Positions 49,705 to 64,000 of a DNA stretch of 64,000 bases are shown piece by piece. The DNA comes from Gluconobacter frateurii. GTDB taxonomy: Bacteria > Pseudomonadota > Alphaproteobacteria > Acetobacterales > Acetobacteraceae. The translations under genes and the position numbers were made by a program. Location: NCBI RefSeq assembly GCF_002723955.1, contig NZ_BEWN01000006.1, forward strand, positions 62,001-126,000. The letters run 5' to 3'. Below the pieces are notes generated by a model. It worked only from the letters and a program-made list of their open reading frames with translations, did no database searches and was not told the DNA's origin. The stretch's first letter is position 1. Each line of letters starts with the position of its first letter.

Positions 49705-50961
49705 TTACGGCAAAAATCGATACATCACGCAGCCTGAGAAGCCAGCCCCCCCTGCAGTTGGAGTACCCTCCACAGCAGCAGAATACGAGCCGCCGCCGCC
49801 TGCACCAAAGCGGGTTCCATCACGGCCAGCCTGATTCCCGCAGCGGCCACCGCCGCCCCACGGGCCATCTCCACCATAGCCTGCAAAGGTCGAGGCATTA
49901 CTCTGGCCGTCTCCGCCCCAGCTCCCGGTCTGATTCCAGATCGTCCCTCCGGATGCAGTACCACCGTCCCCTCCGGCTGAACCCGTGTTGTCATAGAAGA
50001 AGCCACCATGGCCTCCACTGGCCTGAAGAAGTGTTTGCCCGTTGTAGCTGACCAGGGATGTTCCTCCTGTCTGCTCTGAGGCGCCCCCCCGGCCAATCGT
50101 GACTCCCAGAACCCCACCGCTGGTAGGGCTAACACCATAGATGCCCCAGGCATCACCGCCTCCGCCGCCGCCGCCGCCAGAAAAAGATCCGGTCAGCAAC
50201 GTAGAACTGGACGACGCTCCGCCGCCTCCGCCGCCAATGACACGAAGCTCAACACGCGTTGCCCAGGCAGGTACGGAAAGAGACGTATCATTGGCCACAA
50301 GCTGCATTGGTTCTGCGATCGCACGTAGCAATGTCTGCGTCGCCAGTTCGGGAATAGTTGGCCAGAACGCCTGTCCAGGCTGTGGCTGTACACCCGCAAG
50401 CGAAGTGACTCCTTGTGGAACCGTCAGCGTATAAAGCGGAACCACTGTGCCCCCTGCGGGAGCCGCAGGCGCATCCGTTGCAATAATGAAAGACATTCCA
50501 GCCCAGCGACGGGTTGGAAGTACGTCACCACTATTGTTCAGTCCTGCCTGCGTCTGGGACGGATTAGCCGCATTGAAAAATGCAAGAACCGTCTGATCAA
50601 CATCCTGTTCGGCACAGATCGCAAAAACCGTGTAGCTCGCACCCGTTCCTGGCACAGTGACTGTCACTGCCGTATCGCTGGAATACTGACATGTGGTTTG
50701 CGTCGGATCAGCACGATACCCGCCACCGGCTCCCCCAAAAGCAGTCGCATCCATGATGCCGGGAGCGGTAATGGAACCTGCACCAATCGTCACAGCCAAC
50801 GAGGAAGAAGAAGGCGTACAGGCAAGCCCCGATGCTGCTACGACCCCTTGACCATACAGCATGTCAGACATATGGCCGATGGCGGCTTTCCCATACTTTC
50901 CTACGCGCAGAAGGTCCGTATCCAGCGGGATAGACCCCGCATATACAATCGCCCGATCCAT
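49705..50961 (-). CDS. Tail fibre/tip adhesin with glycine-rich C-terminal domain
   Basis: 418 residues. The N-terminal 220 residues look like a baseplate-attachment region (AIVYAGSIPLDTDLLRVGKY). From about residue 245 the sequence is dominated by glycine runs: GGGGGGASSSS, SGGGGGGGGDAWG, ASGGHGG, AGGDGG, DGPWGGGGRCGN and AGGGGSYS. Such spacing resembles polyglycine-helix sandwiches of phage adhesins that contact the host receptor. It is the last tail gene, and its ATG overlaps the stop of tail protein I by one base. Receptor specificity cannot be read. Confidence 0.75.
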   Translation of the reverse strand: MDRAIVYAGSIPLDTDLLRVGKYGKAAIGHMSDMLYGQGVVAASGLACTPSSSSLAVTIGAGSITAPGIMDATAFGGAGGGYRADPTQTTCQYSSDTAVTVTVPGTGASYTVFAICAEQDVDQTVLAFFNAANPSQTQAGLNNSGDVLPTRRWAGMSFIIATDAPAAPAGGTVVPLYTLTVPQGVTSLAGVQPQPGQAFWPTIPELATQTLLRAIAEPMQLVANDTSLSVPAWATRVELRVIGGGGGGASSSSTLLTGSFSGGGGGGGGDAWGIYGVSPTSGGVLGVTIGRGGASEQTGGTSLVSYNGQTLLQASGGHGGFFYDNTGSAGGDGGTASGGTIWNQTGSWGGDGQSNASTFAGYGGDGPWGGGGRCGNQAGRDGTRFGAGGGGSYSAAVEGTPTAGGAGFSGCVMYRFLP

Positions 50962-51647
50962 TATTGCTCCACTCGAACCCAGCCCGTCACGCCACCGGCC
51001 GCAGTTCGTTCAATCACTTGATAAATAACCTGTGTGTCAGAAGCCTGCCCCAACGCAGTTTCCAGAAAAAACTGGCCGCCTGACTGACTGCCATACCGTA
51101 ATCCGGCACAACCATATCCCACGCCGCCACCACAGGACGGCGATGCTAAAGACGCCTGTGCATGACAATCTGCCGCATTCAGAGGCTCGATAATGACAGG
51201 CTCCACCCCCGTAACAGCAACCAGCGCGTCCCTCACAGCCTGTCGGGTATTCCGCGGTGCCACCAGAGAATTCACGATGCGAGCACGATAATCTCTGTCG
51301 CCTTCAGATGCTCTTCGAGGCAGCCCATCCACGCCAAAATAATCGGCCGCCAGCATATCGAGAAAGGCGCCACTCATGGTCGTTAGCCGTATCTGGCTCC
51401 GACACTCCTCCATGAGTACCCAGATACCAGTGAGGACCGTCGCGAAACCTGTCAGAATGGCAACAAGAACTGGCGCTTCTTCCTCTTCCAGACCCTGCGG
51501 AGGAGATGGAAACCAGCCGACAGGAAGAAGCGCACGAAGCCGAGCAGTGAAATCGTCAACAGATCCCGGTAATGGCCCGGTATCCAGAAGAGCCTTTCCA
51601 TCCGTAGCCTGCAGAACAAGGCCTTCTTCATCATAAAGAGTAGCCAT
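50961..51647 (-). CDS. Tail protein I-like baseplate protein (Mu gp48 / P2 gpI class)
   Basis: 228 residues. It matches the late baseplate-periphery protein that links baseplate and fibres: it opens with LLPVGWFPSPPQGLEE, has MSGAFLDMLAADYFGVDGLP and the conserved RDYRARIVNSLVAPRNTRQAV followed by ALVAVTGVEPVIIEP. The order baseplate J - fibre-like - I - fibre is unusual; I normally follows J directly. Spacing is 2 bases after the upstream gene and a one-base overlap with the next. Confidence 0.72.
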   Translation of the reverse strand: MATLYDEEGLVLQATDGKALLDTGPLPGSVDDFTARLRALLPVGWFPSPPQGLEEEEAPVLVAILTGFATVLTGIWVLMEECRSQIRLTTMSGAFLDMLAADYFGVDGLPRRASEGDRDYRARIVNSLVAPRNTRQAVRDALVAVTGVEPVIIEPLNAADCHAQASLASPSCGGGVGYGCAGLRYGSQSGGQFFLETALGQASDTQVIYQVIERTAAGGVTGWVRVEQ

Positions 51648-51649
51648 AA

Positions 51650-52888
51650 TCAGCTTCCAGCCTGAGCGGGACTCATAAGCGGGATACGATAATCGGATCC
51701 ATTGATATTGATATGCAGAAATCCACCATCAACAGTTGTTGGGAGTGTCGCACCAGCCCCACTAACGGGAGACGACATCTGCAACTCACCACCATCAGCC
51801 GGAAAAAGTCCCAGATTGGCTGATCCATTTTCTCCCTGTTGAACATACAGACCAGCCGCCTGGCTTCCTGCACCAGCCTGGACCTGAAGAGCATTATTAG
51901 GAGCAGACATGCTCCCAACAGAAAAAAGCGTCTGACCTTCAATATTACTGAAGAGAATTTCGTTATCGATGAAATCCTGACGTACCCCTTTTGCGCGTTC
52001 CGTGACCGTGGATCGTACAAAAGCGCCGACATTGTTGCCTGCCACTCCAGAAACAACTTCAGGTGTGTGCCACTCCACAGCATGATTGCGCGCCAGCGAA
52101 AGGGCTGAGGCATATCCCGCATCAGTTCCGTCCGTCCCGCGAAGGGATGTCGCACCGAAAACAATTCCGGTCTGCCAGGCATTCGGATTTGAAACAAAGA
52201 CTACTCCGGCCGCTGCATCCGCCGTACCAGTCGTCTGCCCCCCACCGGCACCAAGCTGGATCCCGTACACGCCCCCGCCTACATTCGGAGCGTAAGGATT
52301 GGACTGACCGACAGCCAGTCCACCAAAGTTGACGGCCTCCAGCTCCATAACAAAGGTCGGCTGATAATTCACGCCCGCGAGGCGCCATGCCTCTCCATAA
52401 TATGCATACGCAGTTGTGGTCGTCGGGGTGGAGGTATCGTCAGCAACGCCCCACGCAGCCACACCGATCGAACTTGGTTGGAAGCCAAGCATCTCAGGTG
52501 CGGTTTTTGCATCAGACGTGCGGGATGCCGCGACGAAAGCACTATTTCCATACTGAGCAACGGACGCACACTGCGCATCCTGTAGTGCCCACGGTCCAAT
52601 GGACGTTTCAGACATCGTCCGGGACAGCCAGTCATTATTCGACGCCGCTTCACGGTCACTCAGTCCAGGGTTGGCAGCCGCGTCCCCAATCAGCACACGG
52701 TCTGCAAACCGGCTGATTTTCGCGCCTTTATCCTGGTAAAATTCTCCAGTCGGCTTAGAAACCGCAGGGGCGCCAGCAATCTGGGATGCCGTTGCCGTAA
52801 CAGTGTGCTGACCGCTGGCATCTGCAAGAACGAGAACTTCGTTTCCGGTCAGCGTTTCAAGTTTTGGATATCTATTAAAAACAGGCAT
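51650..52888 (-). CDS. Fibre-like prophage protein inserted between baseplate J and I
   Basis: 412 residues from the ATG at 52888. The N-terminus (LETLTGNEVLVLADASGQHT) resembles adaptor regions of tail fibres. The middle is glycine- and alanine-rich beta structure (NVGGGVYGIQLGAGGGQTTG) and the C-terminus (FLHININGSDYRIPLM) ends like a trimeric fibre. I infer a structural or receptor-binding fibre. No catalytic motif is visible. Its place between the J and I genes suggests later insertion. Confidence 0.6.
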   Translation of the reverse strand: MPVFNRYPKLETLTGNEVLVLADASGQHTVTATASQIAGAPAVSKPTGEFYQDKGAKISRFADRVLIGDAAANPGLSDREAASNNDWLSRTMSETSIGPWALQDAQCASVAQYGNSAFVAASRTSDAKTAPEMLGFQPSSIGVAAWGVADDTSTPTTTTAYAYYGEAWRLAGVNYQPTFVMELEAVNFGGLAVGQSNPYAPNVGGGVYGIQLGAGGGQTTGTADAAAGVVFVSNPNAWQTGIVFGATSLRGTDGTDAGYASALSLARNHAVEWHTPEVVSGVAGNNVGAFVRSTVTERAKGVRQDFIDNEILFSNIEGQTLFSVGSMSAPNNALQVQAGAGSQAAGLYVQQGENGSANLGLFPADGGELQMSSPVSGAGATLPTTVDGGFLHININGSDYRIPLMSPAQAGS

Positions 52889-52933
52889 AGTCTTCCCCAT
52901 CCTCCGCAAATATTCATGCAGGAGGCCTGTCTG

Positions 52934-54073
52934 TCAGTTTTGAGTGACGCTGATCTGAATACTGCCAACTGCCAGAGCCTGATCGCCGTTTGCCGGAATA
53001 TCCAACTGACTGCCGTTGAGACGCACATCAAGAACGGATGTGACCGTTAAGCCAGCTCCCACATATGCCAGATAGGACAGCCTGCTATAGGCATACCCAC
53101 TGCCTACGGTCGTACCTGCAATATCCTGTGCAATTGCATTCTGGATTGCTGTAATGGCCTGCTGTGTTCCCACAGATGCCGGTACAACAACAGTCATGGA
53201 AACATTCAGGACTAAAAGAGAGGGCGCTCGCACACCAAATGCAACACCCAGCGCCCTGACCTCATCTACAGCGTCATAAACCTGTGTCAGCAGTTGGTCA
53301 GAAGGAACGCCGCTGCCATCATTCAAAACAACAGTAAAATAGCCAGAACGTGCGGTATCATCCGCAGCCAGCCCGTCCCGCAACGAATATGACAGACCTG
53401 TCTGAACACCCAAAACAGCATTTCCAACTGCCGCCCTGCTGGCGGACGCTTTCGCTGCCAGCCACAATGGAAAGCGAGCCCGAAGCTCCGCGTCCGTTTC
53501 CTGATCCGAACCATTCAGAAACGCCGCAGGGTTTGTGACCGTATCAATGCCCGAAATGGCCGTACCCATCAGACAGATTGCGCCAATGGGGACATTGCCG
53601 ATTGCACCGGCAGTCTGACACTGAACCGGAACCGAAATATTCGACACACCAGCCGCGCGTACATAACCACCAGCCGTTTCAGACCAGACTGCAAGCGTGC
53701 TATCTTTCACCACACTAAAAGACAAACCAGAAACCGTTCGCGCAATCGTGCCAGGCACAACAACAGCCGATTGCTGGGATGGCGAAAAAGACGACATGGT
53801 TAGCAGACCGGTGGAAGATGTTCCCGGAAGGCGTGACATCCCGAAATCCTGGACAAAACTGTCACAATCTTCTGCCGTACACGTCGCCAAACGGGTTCGA
53901 AGTAAAGTTTGCAACACCAGATACTGCAACCACAGCCCGATGCCGCCAACACTTTCCATCAGCGCACGAACTGGTGAACCGACAGAAACATCCAGCAATT
54001 GCGCACAGGAAGATTGCGCCGTTACCACTGCGGTAGAAACCGTTGTGGCAAACGAGCGAAGAGAAAGAGACAT
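52934..54073 (-). CDS. Baseplate J-like protein
   Basis: 379 residues. Baseplate wedge protein of contractile tails. Family marks are GSPVRALMESVGGIGLWLQY near residue 33, VQCQTAGAIGNVPIGAICLM and FLNGSDQETDAELRARFPLW, followed by a VLNDGSGVPSDQLLTQVYDA strand and a C-terminal repeat. It assembles with the gp25-like protein encoded upstream (41-base gap) around the hub. Confidence 0.85.
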   Translation of the reverse strand: MSLSLRSFATTVSTAVVTAQSSCAQLLDVSVGSPVRALMESVGGIGLWLQYLVLQTLLRTRLATCTAEDCDSFVQDFGMSRLPGTSSTGLLTMSSFSPSQQSAVVVPGTIARTVSGLSFSVVKDSTLAVWSETAGGYVRAAGVSNISVPVQCQTAGAIGNVPIGAICLMGTAISGIDTVTNPAAFLNGSDQETDAELRARFPLWLAAKASASRAAVGNAVLGVQTGLSYSLRDGLAADDTARSGYFTVVLNDGSGVPSDQLLTQVYDAVDEVRALGVAFGVRAPSLLVLNVSMTVVVPASVGTQQAITAIQNAIAQDIAGTTVGSGYAYSRLSYLAYVGAGLTVTSVLDVRLNGSQLDIPANGDQALAVGSIQISVTQN

Positions 54074-54114
54074 TACATCCTCCAGAGGCGCCTGACCGAA
54101 GCAGGCACATCTTT

Positions 54115-54474
54115 TTACGAAGAAAAATCCAGGGTCTGCGCTTGCCCGGTGTCAGCATCCACATAGGAAATCCTGCACCGACACACGCCGTTAGGGTCCG
54201 AACTTACATCGACCTCAACAGGGGAATAAGGATCCACCCCTGTATCTTTTTGAACCTGAGTCCGAATGGCCGCCTGCATTGCAGAAGGAACGACGACGTC
54301 CCCAATCATACCTTGCAAGCCAACGCCATAATCAAGCTGCCAGATATAATCCCCGGAGTTTGTCAGTAACCGCCGCAAAATACGTTGACGAACTTCTTCC
54401 GAACCAGAAACAACAGAAAGCCCACCATTTTCCAGGAGCAGATCGCCACCATAAAAATGCCCGATGGAACTCAT
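54115..54474 (-). CDS. gp25-like baseplate wedge protein (P2 gpW class)
   Basis: 119 residues. Short wedge subunit conserved in all contractile injection systems. The core is GSEEVRQRILRRLLTNSGDY followed by WQLDYGVGLQGMIGD, the gp25-like signature. The ATG overlaps the stop of the spike gene (ATGA). Confidence 0.85.
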   Translation of the reverse strand: MSSIGHFYGGDLLLENGGLSVVSGSEEVRQRILRRLLTNSGDYIWQLDYGVGLQGMIGDVVVPSAMQAAIRTQVQKDTGVDPYSPVEVDVSSDPNGVCRCRISYVDADTGQAQTLDFSS

Positions 54475-55097
54475 CCTACCGGCCCTCCTGTGGACTGTGT
54501 TCCGACGAGATGAATATGATTGTTCAGTGAATGCTCATCGGTCTGGATGTCACCGGAAAAGACCTTCAGGCCATTTGCAGACAATACGGCCCTAACGCTG
54601 CCAACCGTCAGAACAATCTCATCTTGAGAGATGACGAAACTTGAGGTTCCGGCCCCAAGCGTCACGCCTTTTCGTCCGATCTGGCACCAGCCAGCTTCTG
54701 CATTTTCCTGCATGAAAGACGATAAAGCGTCGCTAGCAGGTGGTTCGCCACACCCCGCACGGATCAGCATTTCTCCGGGTTGGACAACACTTCCATCCAG
54801 AGGCGAGACAGGCGCTCTCACAACAGTGTCGAAAACTGCTCCAATCGCAACAAGATGTTCAGCATCTCCTTCAATCGGAAGCAGCACAACATGGGTGCCG
54901 GGTTCGGAAGGACAGGCAATCCTGAGATCTCCCGCCTGAATCCCTCCAACATCTGCAATCCAACCCGTCTCTATGTCATCCGGTTGAATTTTGACTTTGA
55001 TCGCGTGGTTGACAGGATCAACAGCAGACACCACTCCAAAAACAGCATGCGCGCTTCTATTGACCAGTGCAGCACTGACCATCTGCATTTGTGTCAT
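54471..55097 (-). CDS. Baseplate spike protein (gpV-like)
   Basis: 208 residues. An OB-like domain (VFGVVSAVDPVNHAIKVKI, GWIADVGGIQAGDLRIACPS, THVVLLPIEGDAEHLVAIGA) leads into beta-helical spike repeats and ends HSLNNHIHLVGTQSTGGPVG. The HxH in the tail end (NHIHL) may coordinate a metal at the tip, as in P2 gpV. It sits on the hub encoded upstream, 3 bases away. Confidence 0.82.
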   Translation of the reverse strand: MTQMQMVSAALVNRSAHAVFGVVSAVDPVNHAIKVKIQPDDIETGWIADVGGIQAGDLRIACPSEPGTHVVLLPIEGDAEHLVAIGAVFDTVVRAPVSPLDGSVVQPGEMLIRAGCGEPPASDALSSFMQENAEAGWCQIGRKGVTLGAGTSSFVISQDEIVLTVGSVRAVLSANGLKVFSGDIQTDEHSLNNHIHLVGTQSTGGPVG

Positions 55098-55100
55098 GCC

Positions 55101-56159
55101 TCACTCTCCCCGTTTGCGTAACACGACATGCTGTACAAAACCCTCTTCCAGCGAAAATCGTGACACAACCTGATCCACTCCAAGAATTTCCTCTGCCTGT
55201 CCCGACGCAATCCGCATAAATTGACGCGGTCCAAGGCCGATCAGACCAGGCATTGAGACCCGTGCAGACACTGCATGAGCAGCTATCCGCTCATATTTTC
55301 CACGAGCCAATCGCCGAAGATCTTCCACCCTGCGACCCGGAACCCTAAAACTGTGAAATGTTTTCTCTGTTACAGGCGCATTTTCTGAGAATGTTTTTCC
55401 ATCGTAATATAAATGAGTGCTGTTACGCTGCCTTGAATCCCAGGAAGCAAGATGCACTATGACCCCTGATGATAACTGCAAATCTCGAGCAATATCGGTC
55501 TCGAAAACAATTCCATTTGCATCAATGACGCTCTGGGCCTGATTCGAAGTCTGCATTGGTTGACACACCAGCGCCTTCCCATCCGCGTACAGATCGCAAA
55601 GCGCCTCGCGCGCAACAGAAAATGCCAGATCGGCTGCAGTCTGAAATCGATGCTGAGAAAGAAAAGAGCCGCGCTTATGTTCGATTTGCCAGAACTGCCC
55701 CAACATATGATCCGGCATATCGGTCGGAAATGATACTCGTGCGTCTAGCCCGCCCGCCTCAGCTAGTACGGACAGAAGATCAGATCCAGTATGATTCAAC
55801 CATGCGTCTTGCACACGCAGATCAATCAATTGTGCCAGAGCATCTCTGCATTCCATTTCGATAACGGAATACATCGAAAGAACGCGCACATGATCTACGC
55901 GCCCCTGAAAAATCGTGCTCCAATTCGGATTAGCTACCTTTAGATCCCGAATTTCCACAGACACCCATGGGGTGACCGTAGCGCCGCTTTCAAACCAGAG
56001 TGCAGAACTGCTTACTGACGCTTGACTGCGAACAAAGGTCAGAACTGCAGTGTCACACGCCTCATATCTATGAGAATCAATTTCGAATTTTTTTAAAAAT
56101 AATACGGAATTTTCAATCCCGTCCCACAGGACACGAACCTCTAATTGACGATCTGTCAT
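55101..56159 (-). CDS. Tail hub protein (gpD / Mu gp44 class)
   Basis: 352 residues. The N-terminal half forms the hub barrel (ALQLI-type strands such as SVIEMECRDALAQLIDLRVQ) and the C-terminal half includes FRVPGRRVEDLRRLARGKYE and GPRQFMRIASGQAEEILGVD, typical of late-control gpD relatives. It docks under the tube and carries the spike. The ATG overlaps the LysM-protein stop by 4 bases. Confidence 0.78.
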   Translation of the reverse strand: MTDRQLEVRVLWDGIENSVLFLKKFEIDSHRYEACDTAVLTFVRSQASVSSSALWFESGATVTPWVSVEIRDLKVANPNWSTIFQGRVDHVRVLSMYSVIEMECRDALAQLIDLRVQDAWLNHTGSDLLSVLAEAGGLDARVSFPTDMPDHMLGQFWQIEHKRGSFLSQHRFQTAADLAFSVAREALCDLYADGKALVCQPMQTSNQAQSVIDANGIVFETDIARDLQLSSGVIVHLASWDSRQRNSTHLYYDGKTFSENAPVTEKTFHSFRVPGRRVEDLRRLARGKYERIAAHAVSARVSMPGLIGLGPRQFMRIASGQAEEILGVDQVVSRFSLEEGFVQHVVLRKRGE

Positions 56160-56365
56160 TGTCCCACGTCATCAGGAAGACCTGACGAACTCTCCGATAC
56201 AGTTCCTGGAATTTTCAGCATAAGAACTGTTTCAACCCACCCCAGATCAGGATCATTCAGCCCATTGAAATCCGCGATCCGCCACCACTGGCAAGCATCG
56301 CCCAGTTCTTTCGCCGCAACGTGAAACAGAGAAATATCCGCCGAAGTTACGATAATATCTTTCAT
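56156..56365 (-). CDS. Small LysM-like tail protein (gpX-like)
   Basis: 69 residues. A LysM-type segment ISLFHVAAKELGDACQWWRI and ADFNGLNDPDLGWV is followed by LMLKIPG. In contractile phages a small LysM protein lies between tape measure and hub genes and helps attach the hub. Spacing is 6 bases after the upstream gene with a 4-base overlap to the hub gene. Confidence 0.75.
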   Translation of the reverse strand: MKDIIVTSADISLFHVAAKELGDACQWWRIADFNGLNDPDLGWVETVLMLKIPGTVSESSSGLPDDVGQ

Positions 56366-56371
56366 GAATCC

Positions 56372-57292
56372 TCACGAATGAACTGCCGGCATTTGTGCAG
56401 TGAGGCCTTGTGCCTGTCCGACATACGCGTTCGACCGATTGACCAACCCTCCGACGTCTGCCCCCACGCTTTGTACGGCTGCATTTCCCATAACAGCGGA
56501 GAGAGAAGAGGCATTCTCGATCTGGATATTTTCAATATTCTGGCCAGAAATTTCGAGTGCCGACATCAATCCTTGTCCAGAAACACTAAGTTGCTGCGAC
56601 AAACTATCCAGAACTGTCGAGGCACCTGCCAGATTCGTAGCCCCTTGGCTTAAAGCACTGGTTGTCGCGAGTGCGTCACTGACTTTGGCAAGAGAGCCAC
56701 CCGCGCCAACCAATGTGCCCAAAGGCATGAGCTGACCTACAATCGAGCCAACCTGTCCACTTTCGACAAACAAACCGTCAGACACGGCAGAAATAACATC
56801 CGTTAATTGAGTCAAACCGCTGTCAACATCATTTCCCAAAACATCTGAAAGCGTATTTCCTACGGTTGCAGAACCCACACTTTCTGCTGGTCTTTCAAGA
56901 GTAAGCTCATATGAGCAAAGCGCACCTTTCGCTTCATAAGAATAAACGAAGCGTACAATCCAGACTTGTAGAGCAATGCCCGCCGCAGAAAACACTACAG
57001 GCGCGCCACGAACACGCATTTTCTCAATGGCCTGAGCCCGTGCCTGTGCATTCGGTCCAAGAAATTTACCTGTGAGCTCCAGACGACCTGGATCATTGCC
57101 CAGCGTATCAACAACACGCCCACCACCAGGAAGCCGATGAACCACCATCATCTGGCGGCCACCGACCTGCAAACGATCCGGAACTTCAATGCCTGTAAGT
57201 ACCAGATCCCCGAGCATGACGGGCGCCGTTGCTCCCAAACGCCCAACAGAGCCAATGGCATTTTCAAGTGCAGAGAGCGTCAAGCCCATCAA
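56372..57292 (-). CDS. Tail/baseplate adaptor protein upstream of the hub (Mu gp43 position)
   Basis: 306 residues. The N-terminal half has VPDRLQVGGRQMMVVHRLPG, GRVVDTLGNDPGRLELTGKF and KMRVRGAPVVFSAAGIALQV, resembling hub-adaptor proteins encoded just before LysM and hub genes. The C-terminal half is low-complexity and serine/alanine-rich helical (LSQQLSVSGQGLMSALEISG). The Mu gene at this place is called DNA circularisation protein, but a structural role is likelier. Start may be 57292 or 57289. Confidence 0.62.
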   Translation of the reverse strand: MMGLTLSALENAIGSVGRLGATAPVMLGDLVLTGIEVPDRLQVGGRQMMVVHRLPGGGRVVDTLGNDPGRLELTGKFLGPNAQARAQAIEKMRVRGAPVVFSAAGIALQVWIVRFVYSYEAKGALCSYELTLERPAESVGSATVGNTLSDVLGNDVDSGLTQLTDVISAVSDGLFVESGQVGSIVGQLMPLGTLVGAGGSLAKVSDALATTSALSQGATNLAGASTVLDSLSQQLSVSGQGLMSALEISGQNIENIQIENASSLSAVMGNAAVQSVGADVGGLVNRSNAYVGQAQGLTAQMPAVHS

Positions 57293-57306
57293 TGCTCTCC
57301 TTTATT

Positions 57307-58206
57307 TTAACTCATTCCAATACTGCGGCCGGGGTATTGCGGAAACCTTAGCTCATCTACGCCTCCGTGCCCCTGACGTGCCGCGAGCCTCGAACTCCGT
57401 TCCAGATCGTATCTCTCAAACATTCCAGAATGTGATTTTGAAGGAAACTCCCCCCACTCATCAGGAGAAAAATCTTCCTTTACAATACGAGGCTTACCAT
57501 TTTGATTTCGCATCATATTTTCTGAAAGATTTTTCCTTAATGGACCGGAAGGAGCCATGCTATCCTGGGACTGATTATTCGCGCTTTGAACGGAATTACG
57601 CTTCCATCCTACAAAACGGATAAAATTATTATCCTGCATTGCGGAAAAATTGTTATCACGCCCACAAAAAATTGCGCTTCCGAAATTTCCTCTCACAACA
57701 GAACGTCCAAGCTCTTTTGACTCAACTTTTTTACGACGCAATGCCTTAGAGACAAAATTAACACGCTTCGAAAAGGACGTTGCATTTTCGCGATCAGCGA
57801 ACGAAAAAACAGAATTTGAGGTCAGCTTTACGGGCCGGATCGAAGCTGGTGTGGTCGAATTTTTAAAAATCTTTTCTGGTAAATTCCTGTTTGCCAAGGT
57901 GCCGGATTTGATATCTGTCGCACCACCACGAACAATTTTCCTCAACCGCCCGAGAGAAACACGAATATTATTACCTGCTCCCGAAAAACTCTTATCCCCC
58001 TCACGAGCAGTCAATATTCTTCCTACATGCACCATTCCCGAAGGAAAACTCGACCGCAATTTTCCATCGGGGCTTAGGCGAGCTTTAAATCGTCTTCGCA
58101 ACGGCACAAACGAGGATACAGAACCTCCTGATCGCCCTCTAAAGACATGTCGGGCCACCGGCAGAGCGAACTGAAACGCCTCATTCCGTAATTTACCTGT
58201 GCGCAT
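57307..58206 (-). CDS. Unusual basic protein in the tape-measure position
   Basis: 299 residues. The gene lies where the tape-measure protein should be, between the frameshifted chaperone and the hub adaptor, and its ATG is 2 bases after the -1 frame stop. The start (FALPVARHVFRGRSGGSVSS, VPLRRRF) faintly recalls tape-measure N-termini, but the rest is polar and very basic, with no long hydrophobic helices. The DNA is strikingly AT-rich: in 57721-57780 I count 24 G/C of 60. It could be a short or decayed tape measure, or a different protein. I cannot name a function. Confidence 0.6.
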   Translation of the reverse strand: MRTGKLRNEAFQFALPVARHVFRGRSGGSVSSFVPLRRRFKARLSPDGKLRSSFPSGMVHVGRILTAREGDKSFSGAGNNIRVSLGRLRKIVRGGATDIKSGTLANRNLPEKIFKNSTTPASIRPVKLTSNSVFSFADRENATSFSKRVNFVSKALRRKKVESKELGRSVVRGNFGSAIFCGRDNNFSAMQDNNFIRFVGWKRNSVQSANNQSQDSMAPSGPLRKNLSENMMRNQNGKPRIVKEDFSPDEWGEFPSKSHSGMFERYDLERSSRLAARQGHGGVDELRFPQYPGRSIGMS

Positions 58207-58208
58207 CT

Positions 58209-58693
58209 CTATTCCCGATACTGCCTTCGACCCCAGTCAAACACATGCCCGTCGCGCTCCGCCGTGATAATGCATGCCGCCATTCGCCTAGCCCGAGACC
58301 ACGATTTCAGGATATTCCACGGCACTCCATGATCCAGAAGATATAGCATCTCCTGAAACACGGAGTGCCGGCTCAGTTTTTTGCTGTAGCCACCATAGCC
58401 TCGTCATCCTGTTCCTGCTGGAAAAGAGGATGAAGAGCCGCCACTCCAATTTTACCTAACCGGCGCGCCAGCTCACGAATTTCTTCTTTCGTTCCCGGCA
58501 TTTGCACGGGAACTCCATCAATCGCCGTAACAGAACAGATCATTTCTGCATAACCAAGCCAGGTGGCTGCAGCAGGCCCATTAACCGCCGAGCCTGCGGC
58601 TTCGATCAGATCCAGCATATCGGCGGGATCAATCTCTTTGAGAGTCAGGCAACGCCCATCCGAAAGAGACACACTTTCCGGAAGTATACTCAC
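58209..58693 (-). CDS. Tail assembly chaperone, -1 frameshift fusion product
   Basis: If ribosomes slip back one base at 58376-58382, translation continues through 55 more codons (starting LSRHSVFQEMLYLLDHGVPW and ending DGHVFDWGRRQYRE) to a TAG at 58209-58211. The fusion would have about 161 residues. A minority long form made this way is known in lambda (gpGT), P2 (E+E') and Mu. The extension has no good start of its own and ends 2 bases before the next gene, which argues that the frame is selected. A stimulatory hairpin follows the site. Confidence 0.85.
58320..58382 (-). other. Programmed -1 ribosomal frameshift element
   Basis: Heptamer A AAA AAC at 58382-58376 (minus strand, reading order), in frame as gcA AAA AAC and directly followed by TGA. 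After a 5-base spacer comes CGGCACTCCGTG (58370-58359), which pairs with CATGGAGTGCCG (58331-58320) over 12 bp with one G-U. Inside the loop CAGGAGAT (58355-58348) pairs with ATCTTCTG (58342-58335) with one G-U and a GCTAT loop. The whole is a long two-part stem at the right distance to stall ribosomes on the slippery site. Confidence 0.88.
58373..58693 (-). CDS. Tail assembly chaperone, zero-frame product
   Basis: 106 residues (gpE/gpG/Mu gp41 class). It coats the tape measure during tail assembly. The sequence is helical and acidic (LKEIDPADMLDLIEAAGSAV, KEEIRELARRLGKIGVAALH). The last codons are GCA AAA AAC TGA, carrying the -1 slippery heptamer A AAA AAC. The ATG overlaps the tube-gene stop by 4 bases. 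A fused product is described separately. Confidence 0.82.
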   Translation of the reverse strand: MSILPESVSLSDGRCLTLKEIDPADMLDLIEAAGSAVNGPAAATWLGYAEMICSVTAIDGVPVQMPGTKEEIRELARRLGKIGVAALHPLFQQEQDDEAMVATAKN

Positions 58694-59115
58694 GAGATTT
58701 TCGTCCTTGTAGAAGCAAAGAACTGGACTGTCTGATGGACCATCTGGTCAGACTGCCACGCATCATTTTTCAGTTTGATGGAAATATTCGTATATTCCCA
58801 CGTACTGGTCGTCCCGTCCGGTTCCATCACGTACTGATAGATCGTACCGCTTCCGACCGTACCCGCATTCCAGTAAGCCGCCTCAATCGCAGCCACCAGA
58901 TTGTCAAGTGCAGCACTTGCCCGAGCAATCTGAAATGAGCCTCTCCAACCATTAGGAACATTAAATTCCACAGGCATTCCGTTGAGCGGGCTGGCACGCA
59001 GAGCATGCGTCTCCTGCGAAGCGCCAAAAGACGTCACATCCCGAAGATCAACGCGCTGTCCGTTCCACAGAACCGTAATCCGGCAATCCCTGCCAATGCT
59101 GTATGGATTTGCCAT
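58690..59115 (-). CDS. Phage tail tube protein
   Basis: 141 residues. Inner tube subunit of the contractile tail. Beta-rich sequence with RDCRITVLWNGQRVDLRDVT at the start and YTNISIKLKNDAWQSDQMVH near the end. Size and place directly after the sheath gene (2-base gap) and before the chaperone (4-base overlap) identify it. Confidence 0.82.
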   Translation of the reverse strand: MANPYSIGRDCRITVLWNGQRVDLRDVTSFGASQETHALRASPLNGMPVEFNVPNGWRGSFQIARASAALDNLVAAIEAAYWNAGTVGSGTIYQYVMEPDGTTSTWEYTNISIKLKNDAWQSDQMVHQTVQFFASTRTKIS

Positions 59116-59117
59116 AT

Positions 59118-60602
59118 TCAGACACTCCCGCCTGCAGACGTCACCGTCACGGACGTACCACCCTGCAGGTTCACTACAAATTTCTCGTTGATACCCTGAT
59201 ATCGCACAGCAACATCCGCCTGAACGTATCCAAGAGCTGTCCGTGTCTGAGGGTTATTGGAACTGTCGCAAACCACACTGTAAGGCAGCTCACCGTTTTG
59301 AACACCCAGAATTCCCTGAGACAGCAGGGACGACAGAAAGCCTAAAAGCGTCGAACGAATATCCGAGAACAACGTGTCATTCACAACCTGGCCAACATAA
59401 GCTCCCATCCCTCCTGCGAGAGAAGATGCAATATAATTGGTCAGTCGCGTGTAATTGTCGCCATTTACCGTCACTTTGCTCGATGCATTATGCCCACACC
59501 GCACAGCCCAGTAAGACCCGCCTGGTGCAGGGTTGCAAATGACATCAATCCCGGCCGTAAATAGCGTGGAAAGCTCTGCCGTCGAATACGTTGCGCTACT
59601 GCCGCTCAGACCTGACTTCTGGCTACCCACAATCCCTGCCAACGCCTTGTTAAGACTCGACTGCTCAGGAGAGAGCGCGGCCAGAATGCCTGCTGCAAAA
59701 GCCTGCGGGCTGACAAGCATCATTCCATTAACGTCATCATTCCACCACAGCCAGTCACCAAACATCAATTTAACAGCTGATGAATCCAGCCCACTGGCAG
59801 CCTTAACCGCCACAGCGTTCGTCACGCTGTCATAAGAAGGGCCGGAGGCAATCATGTACGCCCCTTCCCCAAGCCCGAATGCAGCTTGAGCGGAATACGA
59901 TGTGCTGTCCGTAACCCCATGTAGAAGCGCTATCGCACAACCCTGTCCTCGCAGGGCATACATCCCTGTTCGAACACTGTCATCTTTTCCCAGAAAAGCC
60001 GAAACAGAAGGCGCCCCGCCATCCAAACCACCCGACAAGGTCACAGCGCCAACCGTGATATCAGGCACAGTCTCCGGCAGGTGCACCATAATCAGAGCCG
60101 ACAGATCCTGCGCAACAGCCGCCGCGAGCGTCGTCCAGTTACTACCGGCGTAACTGGCAAAGCCCAGAACAGGATGCGAAACTGCCAGTGCATAGCCCGA
60201 ACCTGTTGCACTTACAGTCGCAACAATACCGTTACCAACTGTCCCCGTATGGGCAGCCTGAAGAGATACATCCCCAAAACTGCCAGAGGCCGCTACATCT
60301 GTGCCATCCGTAACACGCACTACCACGAAAGAGGATGCCCCTTGCATGGCTGCGATATTCACAGCCAAACCAGCATCCGTCACTGCATTCTGTTTTGCCC
60401 CAAAGGCGGCAAGGTAATCACTCATCCCGCCTACGGGAACAGGTGAACCAACAGGCCCCCAACCCGCAGTTCCCACAATACCAAGTTTGGAAGAGGAAGC
60501 ACCTGTCAGTCCAAGTGTCTGTGGCTGTGCAATCTGCACATAAAGATTAGGCACCGTGAGTGCCGTCGTATTCAGCGTACCCGCCTGATAAACCAGAGAC
60601 AT
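59118..60602 (-). CDS. Contractile tail sheath protein
   Basis: 494 residues (Mu gpL class). The N-terminal part has KLGIVGTAGWGPVGSPVPVG and FVVVRVTDGTDVAASG; the C-terminal sheath domain has GIDVICNPAPGGSYWAVRCG, TRLTNYIASSLAGGMGAYVG and the terminal strand FVVNLQGGTSVTVTSAGGSV. Contraction of this sheath drives the tube through the envelope. It is the first gene after an internal terminator, so it may have its own promoter in 60603-60686. Confidence 0.88.
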   Translation of the reverse strand: MSLVYQAGTLNTTALTVPNLYVQIAQPQTLGLTGASSSKLGIVGTAGWGPVGSPVPVGGMSDYLAAFGAKQNAVTDAGLAVNIAAMQGASSFVVVRVTDGTDVAASGSFGDVSLQAAHTGTVGNGIVATVSATGSGYALAVSHPVLGFASYAGSNWTTLAAAVAQDLSALIMVHLPETVPDITVGAVTLSGGLDGGAPSVSAFLGKDDSVRTGMYALRGQGCAIALLHGVTDSTSYSAQAAFGLGEGAYMIASGPSYDSVTNAVAVKAASGLDSSAVKLMFGDWLWWNDDVNGMMLVSPQAFAAGILAALSPEQSSLNKALAGIVGSQKSGLSGSSATYSTAELSTLFTAGIDVICNPAPGGSYWAVRCGHNASSKVTVNGDNYTRLTNYIASSLAGGMGAYVGQVVNDTLFSDIRSTLLGFLSSLLSQGILGVQNGELPYSVVCDSSNNPQTRTALGYVQADVAVRYQGINEKFVVNLQGGTSVTVTSAGGSV

Positions 60603-60624
60603 CCGCCGGTATTACTCCCAAAAC

Positions 60625-60661
60625 AAAAAAAGCCTTCTGCTCCAGGGCCGGAACAGAAGGC
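60625..60661 (-). terminator. Internal terminator between head/connector and tail genes
   Basis: On the minus strand GCCTTCTG and CAGAAGGC form an 8-bp stem across a 14-base GC-rich loop and are followed by T7. It lies 26 bases after the stop at 60687 and 24 bases before the sheath start. It would reduce read-through from capsid genes into tail genes. Confidence 0.85.
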
Positions 60662-60686
60662 TTCTCCAATTAAATTCTTTTTCTTT

Positions 60687-61664
60687 TCAGTCTGCCGAAC
60701 TGACAACCGTACCAAACTGATTCAGCGACATTCCCGGATATTCAAACTGGGCAGACACAGAAAGAGCAGCAGAGGCCATCGCCTCCAGCGCCCGTTTCAC
60801 AACATCCTCCCCAGGTGCAGGTGCAATTGCACCAAAGCCACTGTCCTGCCCTCCGACATCAATAGTCCCCACTCCAAACATCATGTCAGCAGTCCATTGG
60901 GTCTGGAGCGTGTCAAAAATCAGCTCATAGAGATAATCCCGACGATAAACCGCCTGATTTTGCATGGCGTCAACATCTTCAACACCCACAAACTTCAACT
61001 GCGCCTGTCGACCATCCAATGTCGATATCCAGTTCTTCTCCGCAAGCTCCGTATCAAGAGACCGCCCTATCATATCCCGAACGCTGGCATCCGCGGTCCA
61101 GACTGAAACACGATACAATTGACTCTGCCGGCGGCTAACGCGAACAGACTCCCCATATCCGACAACATTTCCAAGCACCGAAACACCCGGCACACTGACA
61201 ACCGCACCATCCGCAGTCCCGTTCAGCAATTGTTTTGCCAAAGCAGAAGCCACAGTTTCTGCCGTATCTTGCGCGGTCACCGCATAAGCGGCCGTCGTCT
61301 GAAGTTCACCGTCGTCATACCAGAGGCCAACAACCCCTGAAGGAGGCAGATTTTCCGGAAAAACAACCTGCACGGATTGTCCACTCTGACGAACCGAAAC
61401 AGTCGGCAGGATACGTGCCTGAACCTGCCACGGGCGCCCCAACGGTTCCGGTACAGTCGCCCCCTTTTGAGCAGCCATCGTGACAGTCACAAAATCGGTA
61501 TAATTCCGAATATTCTGAGCTGTAAAAATATCACTGGGCAAAAGCCAGCCTCGTCGAACGATCGCCTGCCGCCCAGTAACGGAGGATTTTTCCAAACCGT
61601 CGGGGTATAATATTCCCGCACAGACATACGCCAGCGCCTGACTCATCTGAGAGGCATCCGCCAT
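60687..61664 (-). CDS. Prophage protein of unknown function, connector/tail-completion zone
   Basis: 325 residues; I do not recognise a family. It contains a central mixed region (VRQSGQSVQVVFPENLPPSG, AAYAVTAQDTAETVASALAK) and a C-terminal part (YRRDYLYELIFDTLQTQW, APAPGEDVVKRALEAMASAA). It is encoded between a connector protein and the sheath, where tail-terminator or tail-completion proteins usually lie. The position suggests that role, but no motif confirms it. Confidence 0.6.
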   Translation of the reverse strand: MADASQMSQALAYVCAGILYPDGLEKSSVTGRQAIVRRGWLLPSDIFTAQNIRNYTDFVTVTMAAQKGATVPEPLGRPWQVQARILPTVSVRQSGQSVQVVFPENLPPSGVVGLWYDDGELQTTAAYAVTAQDTAETVASALAKQLLNGTADGAVVSVPGVSVLGNVVGYGESVRVSRRQSQLYRVSVWTADASVRDMIGRSLDTELAEKNWISTLDGRQAQLKFVGVEDVDAMQNQAVYRRDYLYELIFDTLQTQWTADMMFGVGTIDVGGQDSGFGAIAPAPGEDVVKRALEAMASAALSVSAQFEYPGMSLNQFGTVVSSAD

Positions 61665-61676
61665 ATCTATGTCCTC

Positions 61677-62279
61677 TCAGATCTGCTGCAAAGACATGGT
61701 GCACCGCAAGCCCCAGTCAGACATTTCAGCAGTATTCACAGTATAGGTAACATCGAGATCTGTCGTGACCGTCATGTAAGGCTGAAGCATGACACCAGGA
61801 AGACGTGGCAGGTACATGATAAACTGACCCGGCCGTACGGAACCTGGAACGCCACTCCCCGAACCTTCTCCTTTTGACCTCAAAACAATCGCGGCAGGAC
61901 AATCCTCAATAACATTCCCTTCTGTTCCGGTCACGCCGCTGACCTGTACAACCCGGCTACAAGCGACACATAAGGGTGGCCTCAAATCCTCAACCGCCGC
62001 GACAAAAAACGTTTTCCCAGCACATGTCAGAATATCCCCAACCAGCGTATCATCTCGCCGATCCGTCAGAACATATTCCATAACCTTGCCCCAACCAGGA
62101 ACGCGGGAAAATGAAAACGAGTCATCCGTGTCAAAAGCGAGCATGGGATGGGCATAAACCGCCTGCATCGGCTCCAGCGGATTAACAGGCCGATACTGCA
62201 CACCCGTCTGCCCCAGGATACCCGCTGCTTTTGCGTGTCCTTTACAGATCCTGGACGCAATCAGTTCCAGATTCATCAT
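61677..62279 (-). CDS. Prophage protein of unknown function, head-tail connector zone
   Basis: 200 residues; family not recognised. N-terminus helical (NLELIASRICKGHAKAAGIL), then beta-rich segments (FFVAAVEDLRPPLCVACSRV, FIMYLPRLPGVMLQPYMTVT). A CVACS cysteine pair is present. The spacing (7 bases before, 12 after) puts it in the capsid-to-tail transcript; a minor capsid or stopper protein is possible. Confidence 0.6.
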   Translation of the reverse strand: MMNLELIASRICKGHAKAAGILGQTGVQYRPVNPLEPMQAVYAHPMLAFDTDDSFSFSRVPGWGKVMEYVLTDRRDDTLVGDILTCAGKTFFVAAVEDLRPPLCVACSRVVQVSGVTGTEGNVIEDCPAAIVLRSKGEGSGSGVPGSVRPGQFIMYLPRLPGVMLQPYMTVTTDLDVTYTVNTAEMSDWGLRCTMSLQQI

Positions 62280-62286
62280 GCCTCCT

Positions 62287-62688
62287 TCAAATCACCACGG
62301 CACGACCATCCTGCAGTTCCAGACCGCCCGTCACACCAAGAAACGCACAGAGACGACGCCTCCAAAGCGTAAAAAGCGTCACCCGATCCCGCAATTCATG
62401 ACCATTGTGATACCAGCTCGCAGCCTGCGCCGTATCCAGATTGTCCGAAGCCCCAAGAAGGGCCGTTTCAAGAGGGTAAAGCTGCAACAAATACAGCCGG
62501 ATCTGCTGAAGTTCTGCGCCTGACAGGTTCCCCATACGCCATTCAAGCGCTCCTTCAACCTGAAAGAAACGCCAGGATTCCTGCCCTGTCTCCCGAGACC
62601 CGACAGCCGGATACCCGCAGAACCTACGGACATCCATTTTCTCTCCTTCCGTTAAAGGAGTAGAAGACAGACTTACCGTTCCAGACAT
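62287..62688 (-). CDS. Putative head-tail connector/adaptor protein
   Basis: 133 residues from 62688, with AGGGG 6 bases upstream. The ATG at 62637, after AGGAGAG, is an alternative. The start (TPLTEGEKMDVRRFCGYPAV) resembles the opening of phage head-tail adaptors encoded just after the capsid gene. The middle is helical (LSGAELQQIRLYLLQLYPLE). Function is inferred from position and that opening. Confidence 0.62.
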   Translation of the reverse strand: MSGTVSLSSTPLTEGEKMDVRRFCGYPAVGSRETGQESWRFFQVEGALEWRMGNLSGAELQQIRLYLLQLYPLETALLGASDNLDTAQAASWYHNGHELRDRVTLFTLWRRRLCAFLGVTGGLELQDGRAVVI

Positions 62689-62741
62689 AGTTTTCCCCTG
62701 ACCTGAAAGGCCCCGTGTCCTCACGAGGCCCCAGTTCATTT

Positions 62742-64000
62742 TCAGAACGTCATGCCCAGCGCATCCGTGCCAAGGCTCTCAATCACAACACCACGCTTTA
62801 GATAGCTGTTGGTCGCCGTCGGAATAACATTCGTATCCGCCGTCACGTCCGTCGGAAGCGCAAAACCGCCAATCCAGTACCAGGACTGCGCAATGATCTG
62901 CCGCAGACGATCCAGCGGCTCACGGGTCACCATCGCCACACCATCAACCATCTCAATCAGCGCGCGATCAGCGTCTGGAATGTCGGAATGTCCCGTTAGC
63001 GCACAATCGCCCTCAATCAGCGCCCCTTGACCCAAAAGCAGTGCACGATGAATGGGTCCAGCCCCCAGCGAAAGCTGCTGAGGTGCTTCAGTTGTCGGAA
63101 TGAAGCGAACGCCCAGAAGTTCAATCACCTGCCCCGAACGATATTCTTCCGAACCATACGCACCACGATAGAGATGCTTGAAATCATCATCGCGGAACAG
63201 CGACAGAAGCTGGATATCATCCAGATAACAGTGATACGCACCATTGATCATCGGCACGTTATTCCTGCGCAGTGTCGCAACACCGGCCAGAACCTGCTGG
63301 ATACCGAGCGTATCCGCCAGACCGCTCGAACTCGCGGTCTGAAGCGCCGCCGTCGTCAGGCGACCATTAGGGCGAATAACCTTCGGCGCAGTCGCGGCAA
63401 CCACAGGCTGCCCTAGAGCACCATCGGAAACAGAAACGCTGCTGGCAAATGTCATCTGCCCCGAAATACCGCCCGGCGCTGTAGAAATATTGGTCGCATC
63501 CGCCACAACCCGGACAAGCGTGTAAACATCCGAACCAACGGTGACAGTCATGCCACTGCTGGACCCGATCAGCGTCACCTGACCATTGACGATAACCGAC
63601 TGGAACCCGCGAATATCATCAACCTGAATGGTGTCCCCTTCCGCATCCAGCGCAACGTTCACACGTGTATTGCCACCCAGATAACCGCCAACACCATTCT
63701 GAGCGCCACCGAAAAGCGTATTACGAGCCAGGCGATCCAGAGACTGCATCGCCTGAACACCATTCGTGTTGGCATTGGCAAGAAACTGGGACGCAATCCC
63801 GACGCCACTCGTGACCATGTTCAGATCAATCGTGTCACCATACTGGTTGATCGACAGCGTATACTGCTCGACGGACCAACCAGCGGGACTCATCCCATTA
63901 TCAAAATTGGTATTGCCCGTCGGATTGAGCGGCGTCGTAACGGGAGCCTTCAGGCTTTTGCGCGTCTTGGTCAGCGTCTCACCAATCGCGTTCGGGAAAA
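62742..64000 (-). CDS. Major capsid protein (N4-gp56-like), 5' end beyond window
   Basis: About 418 codons visible. The frame stays open from the ATG at 63893 to the window edge, encoding PNAIGETLTKTRKSLKAPVT and NPTGNTNFDN upstream, so 63893 is not the real start. The core (QYGDTIDLNMVTSGVGIASQ, NTLFGGAQNGVGGYLGGNTR) resembles N4-gp56-type major capsid proteins, and it ends ESLGTDALGMTF. It is followed by connector-type genes. The capsid class is moderately certain. Confidence 0.68.
   Translation of the reverse strand, partial: FPNAIGETLTKTRKSLKAPVTTPLNPTGNTNFDNGMSPAGWSVEQYTLSINQYGDTIDLNMVTSGVGIASQFLANANTNGVQAMQSLDRLARNTLFGGAQNGVGGYLGGNTRVNVALDAEGDTIQVDDIRGFQSVIVNGQVTLIGSSSGMTVTVGSDVYTLVRVVADATNISTAPGGISGQMTFASSVSVSDGALGQPVVAATAPKVIRPNGRLTTAALQTASSSGLADTLGIQQVLAGVATLRRNNVPMINGAYHCYLDDIQLLSLFRDDDFKHLYRGAYGSEEYRSGQVIELLGVRFIPTTEAPQQLSLGAGPIHRALLLGQGALIEGDCALTGHSDIPDADRALIEMVDGVAMVTREPLDRLRQIIAQSWYWIGGFALPTDVTADTNVIPTATNSYLKRGVVIESLGTDALGMTF

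Follow-up and report, generated by a model that had tools for sequence, protein, structure and literature searches.

A probable programmed −1 frameshift in the tail assembly chaperone gene of a phage-derived element of Gluconobacter frateurii and its conservation in Acetobacteraceae

The stretch analyzed here, 64,000 nucleotides of Gluconobacter frateurii DNA (contig NZ_BEWN01000006.1 of assembly GCF_002723955.1, positions 62,001 to 126,000; hereafter the window), contains part of a phage-derived element with genes of a contractile tail, among them a putative tail assembly chaperone (TAC) gene whose end carries a slippery heptamer in contact with the stop codon, a stable hairpin and an open −1 frame. 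Our comparative sequence analysis points to a programmed −1 ribosomal frameshift in this gene, with a probability that we put at about 0.93. The type of device is ordinary, the in silico support for it is unusually good, the protein family of the chaperone is unassigned and the carrier is unexpected. That a hairpin stimulates a −1 frameshift here and so yields a fusion of chaperone and extension had been proposed in a preliminary description of the window, and the conservation tests suggested there were passed in silico: in the alignment of homologues the heptamer, its spacing, the outer stem and the −1 frame are all conserved.

Slippery heptamer and stop codon in Acetobacteraceae

The open reading frame (ORF) of the chaperone comprises 106 codons and ends with GC A AAA AAC TGA, and the AAAAAAC heptamer described earlier directly before TGA is thus confirmed by reading the sequence (coordinates in Table 1). 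Among 299 stop-to-stop ORFs of at least 100 amino acids in the window and the adjoining 20 kb, none but the chaperone ORF had a slippery heptamer ending at its stop, which argues that the site did not arise by chance. Related 20-kb regions, 18 in number, yielded 22 such ORFs out of 1318; 18 of the 22 were the chaperone with AAAAAAC, one per region, and the remaining four (GGGGGGA, AAAAAAG, AAAAAAA and GGGGGGC) were located in non-chaperone ORFs.

A homologue of the chaperone was found in 155 of 397 sampled genomes of Acetobacteraceae, representing 49 of 102 genera. The loci read were those found by the searches together with 54 regions picked among the listed matches, each of which gave a chaperone row; 152 loci provided a row, and the 107 that are non-identical around the site form the base for the site counts. 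At 105 of these 107 sites an in-phase X XXY YYZ heptamer touches the stop codon (TGA, TAA or TAG), being AAAAAAC in 84, GGGAAAC in 19, and AAAAAAA and AAAAAAT in one each. The two main types are both canonical and differ by three bases, and a heptamer ending in G was found at none of the 107 sites. In the set confirmed by tblastn (25 species-genome and 27 viral-contig loci, several of the viral ones being identical in site sequence to a genome locus), AAAAAAC abuts the stop in the window and in 52 of 52 loci. A plain pseudogene frameshift was considered as well and is ruled out by the 105 conserved sites.

The two remaining sites (L112 and L128) have GGGAAAC placed 18 nt further upstream, at −25, and in a distant paralogue (L177) AAAAAAC lies in phase 46 nt ahead of the stop, the 0 frame being longer by 13 codons (39 nt); stem arms are recognizable by eye downstream of the heptamer of L177. 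Judging from these homologues, the constant parts of the device are the heptamer and the stem, whereas the abutting stop is common, not essential. With the stop 18 nt further on in L112 and L128 and 39 nt further on in L177, these three loci represent natural controls for the abutting stop.

The second frame could also be produced by RNA polymerase slipping on a run of six adenines, which AAAAAAC provides at 84 of the 107 sites. However, GGGAAAC stands in its place at 19 sites at −7 and at two at −25, where runs inside the heptamer do not exceed three bases, and the X XXY YYZ phase together with a downstream hairpin selected beyond coding fits ribosomal slippage. Transcriptional slippage is hence considered very improbable.

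A class-wide profile search gave matches in three of 385 genomes, two of them within Acetobacteraceae. The third match was weak and partial and fell in a 451-aa ORF in which a motif scan found no matching device, so that no spread beyond Acetobacteraceae is claimed.

Extension in the −1 frame and the downstream hairpin

Past the slip site the −1 frame reads LSRHSVFQEMLYLLDHGVPWNILKSWSRARRMAACIITAERDGHVFDWGRRQYRE, ending with a TAG at 58211-58209, and the next ATG follows at 58206, two bases on; the 55 open codons described earlier, stopping two bases short of the next gene, are therefore present. The extension is 49-68 codons long in the homologues, except in L029, where the contig ends, and its conservation as protein reaches down to 27% identity with that of the window. 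Across 46 sequences, residues L13 and R31 are invariant and L1, S2, H4, G17, V18, P19, A33, G43 and D47 nearly so. In 17 sequences of the Gluconobacter group the ratio of nonsynonymous to synonymous polymorphism (pN/pS) of the extension DNA amounted to 0.21 in the −1 frame, 1.44 in the 0 frame and 2.01 in the +1 frame. Stop codons were found in none of the 17 sequences in the −1 frame, in 16 (at least one each) in the 0 frame and in all 17 in the +1 frame. As judged by these substitution and stop patterns, the extension is under purifying selection in the −1 frame. The shortest overlap of the two frames (13 nt, in L027, L054 and L144) still has the heptamer inside. A small fold was predicted for the extension with a pLDDT of 89.5; its search against PHROGs gave a best E of 0.019, and the best match in the fold search was a phage protein of 49 aa that is uncharacterised (E 0.089, template modelling scores 0.77/0.86).

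Alternatively, the extension might be a small gene of its own, as annotated in the Komagataeibacter phage phiKX1, with translation by termination-reinitiation or coupling. The stop abutting the extension and a GTG nearly invariant at its codon 17, counted from 0 (101 of 104 sequences), are compatible with such a gene. However, the first −1 codon is CTG at 91, CTA at 13, TTG at two and ATG at one of the 107 sites, that is, no start codon is conserved there, and no start ahead of codon 17 is common to most sequences. The GTG at codon 17 encodes the valine of GVPW within the 3' arm of the stem, and a start at this codon would lose the conserved residues 1-17. A separate gene would, furthermore, give the heptamer no reason for conservation, and we regard this explanation as having very little to recommend it compared with a frameshift. 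In phiKX1 (L055) the −1 extension (12345-12539) overlaps the separately annotated hypothetical gene (CDS 12363-12542).

Folding of the region 58382-58320 revealed a minimum free energy (MFE) of −36.1 kcal/mol compared to a mean of −13.7 for shuffled sequences (z −7.35), and none of 200 shuffles was as good. The 12-bp outer stem noticed earlier, with one G-U pair and beginning 5 nt past the heptamer, is present in this fold. The second part of what had been called an elaborate two-part stem turned out differently: instead of an inner stem of 8 bp the MFE structure has one of 11 bp (58357-58347/58343-58333) with a 3-nt loop, and what the relatives conserve is an outer core of about 9 bp, inner pairs being broken in many of them.

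The core pairs of the outer stem (alignment columns 14-62 to 22-54) are formed by 94 to 102 of 104 sequences, and six or more of these nine pairs recur in the individual MFE structures of 98 of 103 sequences, L078 being left out. When the −1 peptide was kept and codons were drawn from local usage (n = 104, L029 being too short for this test), the real folds were stronger than this synonymous null, with a mean z of −3.7 and z below −2 in 95%. The covariation score of 0.239, although such scores are inflated by the relatedness of sequences according to the tool's own warning, was reached in none of 500 shuffles (mean 0.153) and in none of the six slid versions of the alignment (maximum 0.175). 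Codon usage within the stem points in the same direction: valine at codon 17 (from 0) is encoded by GTG in 101 of 102 cases, compared with 101 of 233 at later valine codons, and histidine at codon 3 (from 0) by CAC in 96 of 101 cases, compared with 15 of 36. By these comparisons synonymous codon choice is restricted within the stem, and the hairpin is selected as RNA, beyond its coding content.

Being very stable, the hairpin could instead serve as a terminator or as a site of RNase processing, with the heptamer next to it incidental. Against such a role, spacing and heptamer are conserved jointly, the extension is coding across the whole hairpin, and no Rfam family reached its threshold, the sole match with E of at most 1 being rox1 (18.4 bits compared to a cut-off of 58). 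We assign a negligible probability to this explanation, and consider a stimulator of −1 frameshifting to be the far more probable reading of the hairpin.

Proposed mechanism, contrary observations and known systems

From this arrangement we infer slippage at the heptamer, at a rate that would leave the fusion the minor product, by a tandem tRNA mechanism. The majority of ribosomes would read A AAA AAC and halt at UGA, releasing the 106-aa chaperone. The hairpin, located 5-6 nt downstream, would stall ribosomes over the slippery codons, and a minority of them would slip one base back, with the tRNAs re-pairing from AAA AAC to AAA AAA, and continue for 55 codons to produce a fusion of ~161 aa with the expected junction ATAK, N or K, and LSR. 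The abutting stop could add pausing. As to the protein partners, by analogy with gpG/gpGT of phage lambda the partner of the short form may be the tape measure protein, and tail tube subunits may be recruited by the extension. Among the 44 tRNA genes found in the genome are two kinds of tRNA-Lys, with the anticodons UUU and CUU, and a single tRNA-Asn(GUU), and heptamers ending in AAG are perhaps avoided because a CUU tRNA reading AAG would re-pair poorly on AAA. E. coli has a single lysine tRNA, as stated in PMC5009743.

Several observations speak against a programmed frameshift stimulated by this hairpin. The same source describes A_AAA_AAC as the weaker site in E. coli, A_AAA_AAG being much shiftier. 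The homologues represent a sample and not an exhaustive set, and the chaperone is damaged or missing in two of 26 genomes of the genus. One homologue (L078) is short of one base within the −1 frame, whether by a sequencing error or by a real loss. In the synonymous-null test z was above −1.5 in three of 104 sequences (L074, L116 and L132 being the weakest). Pairs with changes in both partners were at least as numerous in 32 of 500 shuffles as in the real alignment and equally numerous at slide −2, and cells with such changes were equally numerous at slide −1. Inner pairs are unpaired in as many as 56 of the 104 sequences, and fewer than six core pairs are kept in five of 103, namely five pairs in L076 and L112, other stems in L002 and L151 and no comparable stem in L116. 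Furthermore, RNAalifold applied to all 104 sequences gave almost no structure. The stem evaluated on the same alignment, however, has an energy of −14.8 (nine pairs) to −25.8 kcal/mol (23 pairs) compared to −1.06 kcal/mol for the fold proposed by RNAalifold, and we therefore interpret the empty prediction as a result of its pair filter.

Weak matches in sequence and fold point to tail assembly chaperones as the identity of the 0-frame product. It belongs to phrog_20383, a family without assigned function, and its gap-aware pN/pS is 0.26. Searches of Pfam with the chaperone and the extension found no family common to more than one member (every E > 0.02), profiles of both gave nothing convincing among PDB sequences (best E 0.18), and no PDB match with E < 0.59 was obtained by Foldseek. 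The HK97 tail assembly chaperone (2ob9) and YqbN (3klu) share 15% and 9% identity, respectively, with the chaperone, at modest Z.

The arrangement resembles gpG/gpGT of lambda in the short chaperone with its −1 extension, the location in a tail gene block and the canonical heptamer close to where the first ORF ends, and differs from it in sequence family, that is, phrog_20383 with its unassigned function. In PMC5009743, frameshifts of the gpG/gpGT type are described for many long-tailed phages; in lambda, according to this source, the tape measure is bound by the short product and the tube subunit by the −1 domain, and the proportion of the two matters. Tail genes of haloarchaeal siphoviruses contain the same two heptamers according to the same source. 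Phage Mu, named earlier beside lambda and P2 as making a minor fusion by frameshifting in its tail chaperone, is described there as using −2 frameshifting and does not serve as a −1 precedent. The Komagataeibacter phages phiKX1 and phiKX2 have a homologous chaperone (51.5% identity); heptamer, stop and extension of phiKX1 are as in the window. These phages differ in their records of ~53 kb, and the tape-measure region of phiKX1 contains a 742-aa ORF in contrast to the 299 aa found here.

The carrier element and its inheritance

The cluster of ~20 kb to which the chaperone gene belongs (Table 1) is arranged in the order helix-turn-helix gene, terminases, portal, scaffold, major head protein, sheath, chaperone, baseplate and fibres, and the sheath gene (phrog_23) indicates a contractile tail. 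One border is the host dnaB; at the other, a gap of 44 bp separates the last fibre ORF from a cytochrome/GMC dehydrogenase pair. The 299-aa ORF downstream of the extension is the least conserved of the cluster; relatives likewise have an ORF downstream of the extension, which in Gluconobacter relatives is of similar size and in the same place. If the 742-aa ORF of phiKX1 is a tape measure and its tail has the 98.9 nm tabulated for K. xylinus NBRC 13772 in PMC8566455, a value of ~0.13 nm per residue would give a tail of ~40 nm for the 299-aa ORF. The divergent helix-turn-helix gene at the edge of the element (L056:7438-7830), which shows 79-100% identity in 18 of 18 regions and is among the most conserved genes, is a possible regulator of the element.

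Table 1. Positions in the window of the predicted frameshift device and of the surrounding phage-derived genes.
Feature	Position	Strand	Basis or remarks
Putative tail assembly chaperone, 0-frame product, 106 aa, GTG start	58373..58693	-	
Slippery heptamer A AAA AAC, in phase	58376..58382	-	Same site in 105 of 107 non-identical homologues
0-frame stop TGA touching the heptamer	58373..58375	-	Heptamer-stop contact in 105 of 107; absent in L112, L128 and L177
−1 frame extension (T-like domain), 55 codons LSRHS..FDW..YRE, then TAG	58209..58376	-	Conservation, pN/pS, predicted fold
5' arm of the outer, putatively stimulatory stem	58359..58370 (conserved core 58361-58369)	-	Core pairs in 94-102 of 104 sequences
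3' arm of the outer stem	58320..58331 (conserved core 58321-58329)	-	Folding and alignment
Inner stem-loop, 11 bp in the MFE of the window, poorly conserved in relatives	58333..58357	-	
Phage-derived element, part in the window (fibres, baseplate, tail, major capsid protein)	49705..64000	-	Continues to ~69830 (L056:7830) with portal, terminase and helix-turn-helix gene, then host dnaB
Tail sheath protein (contractile tail)	59118..60602	-	phrog_23, tail sheath, 1.5e-46
Probable tail tube protein, judged from its place behind the sheath	58690..59115	-	phrog_12993 (unknown function), 1.1e-42
299-aa ORF, tape measure by position only	57307..58206	-	Fast-evolving, no family match

The element had been taken for a prophage, a description that is not supported by our data: its contig gave no tyrosine-integrase match, its genes are collinear in 18 regions, and dnaB lies nearby in 13 of the 14 compared genomes of the genus. 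The search for tyrosine integrases (PF00589) gave no match on the contig of the element (C6), serine recombinases lying outside this search, and nine matches on other contigs of the genome, three of them on contig C4. The best PHROG matches of the scanned ORFs, a set that leaves out the 418-aa fibre ORF, include no replication family, and no exact direct repeat of at least 11 bases was shared by the end stretches of 800 and 1500 bases that were compared. The 18 collinear regions, several of which end inside the cluster, derive from Gluconobacter, Neokomagataea, Asaia, Brytella and other relatives. A second copy of the chaperone, 59% identical, is located on C4 at ~350172 (L002, L057, L058), with the nearest integrase matches at C4:338913 and C4:320741; its hairpin is devoid of the core pairs of the window, and it probably belongs to an ordinary prophage.

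The distance between dnaB and the chaperone amounts to 11-19 kb in the 13 genomes of the genus and to ~96 kb in the fourteenth (G378); in other genera dnaB was not within the fetched region. Over 28 hand-picked genomes, the identity of the chaperone to that of the window followed the identity of dnaB (Spearman 0.78). The correlation vanishes over the 16 genomes outside the genus (Spearman 0.06), and inheritance is therefore supported within the genus only. The chaperone rows of the genus group into a single clade, in which L162 alone has a long branch. In six genomes, 16 ORFs of the element showed pN/pS of 0.08-0.32 and no stops. The chaperone is present in 24 of the 26 genomes of the genus, and the two exceptions (G397 and G403) still have the head protein and the regulator. 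The chaperone of G397 (L222) has an internal deletion, with heptamer, stop and extension remaining; in G403 (L223), whose copy is flanked by the same cytochrome/GMC dehydrogenase pair, the sheath-to-tape-measure region is largely lost and several genes are split. Most species therefore retain the element, and some can do without it.

Taken together, the element looks like an old, inherited phage-derived one. Gene transfer agents are head-tail gene clusters kept in host genomes, and the element is possibly one of them. Terminase, portal, major capsid protein, tail and baseplate genes, a contig with no tyrosine-integrase match and the lack of replication families among the best PHROG matches of the scanned ORFs correspond to the gene content of such an agent. 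At the level of description it can be set beside the gene transfer agents of alphaproteobacteria (RcGTA, BaGTA), which it resembles in the head-tail cluster retained in the host genome and from which it differs in its contractile sheath. No description of the element was found among the listed titles and opening lines of abstracts of the literature on gene transfer agents, prophages, phage-like elements and tailocins in Gluconobacter, Acetobacteraceae or acetic acid bacteria, on contractile tails and on domestication, a search outside which most subscription journals lay. A more far-reaching proposal, which we put forward tentatively and hold to be rather doubtful, is that the frameshift might be a switch in a domesticated, contractile-tailed, DNA-packaging particle of acetic acid bacteria. 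This candidate gene transfer agent would be fixed in Gluconobacter at a place near dnaB, and whole tails would still be assembled in nature, to judge from selection on the chaperone and its fusion. The slip site would be a natural design of heptamer, stop and hairpin that uses heptamers ending in AAC in a genome with a dedicated tRNA-Lys(CUU).

The frameshifting trick is familiar in phages; here it is conserved across many Acetobacteraceae, including a cluster that Gluconobacter species seem to inherit. The analysis offers a likely function for the unannotated family phrog_20383 and for its −1 ORF, which is separately annotated or missed across Acetobacteraceae. The homologues constitute a well-sampled natural series (AAAAAAC, GGGAAAC, AAAAAAT and AAAAAAA, some abutted by a stop and some not) for the effects of site and stop on frameshifting in alphaproteobacteria. 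The signal of selection suggests that the phage-like cluster of Gluconobacter assembled tails in the recent evolutionary past, which makes the production of particles and gene transfer by them worth testing.
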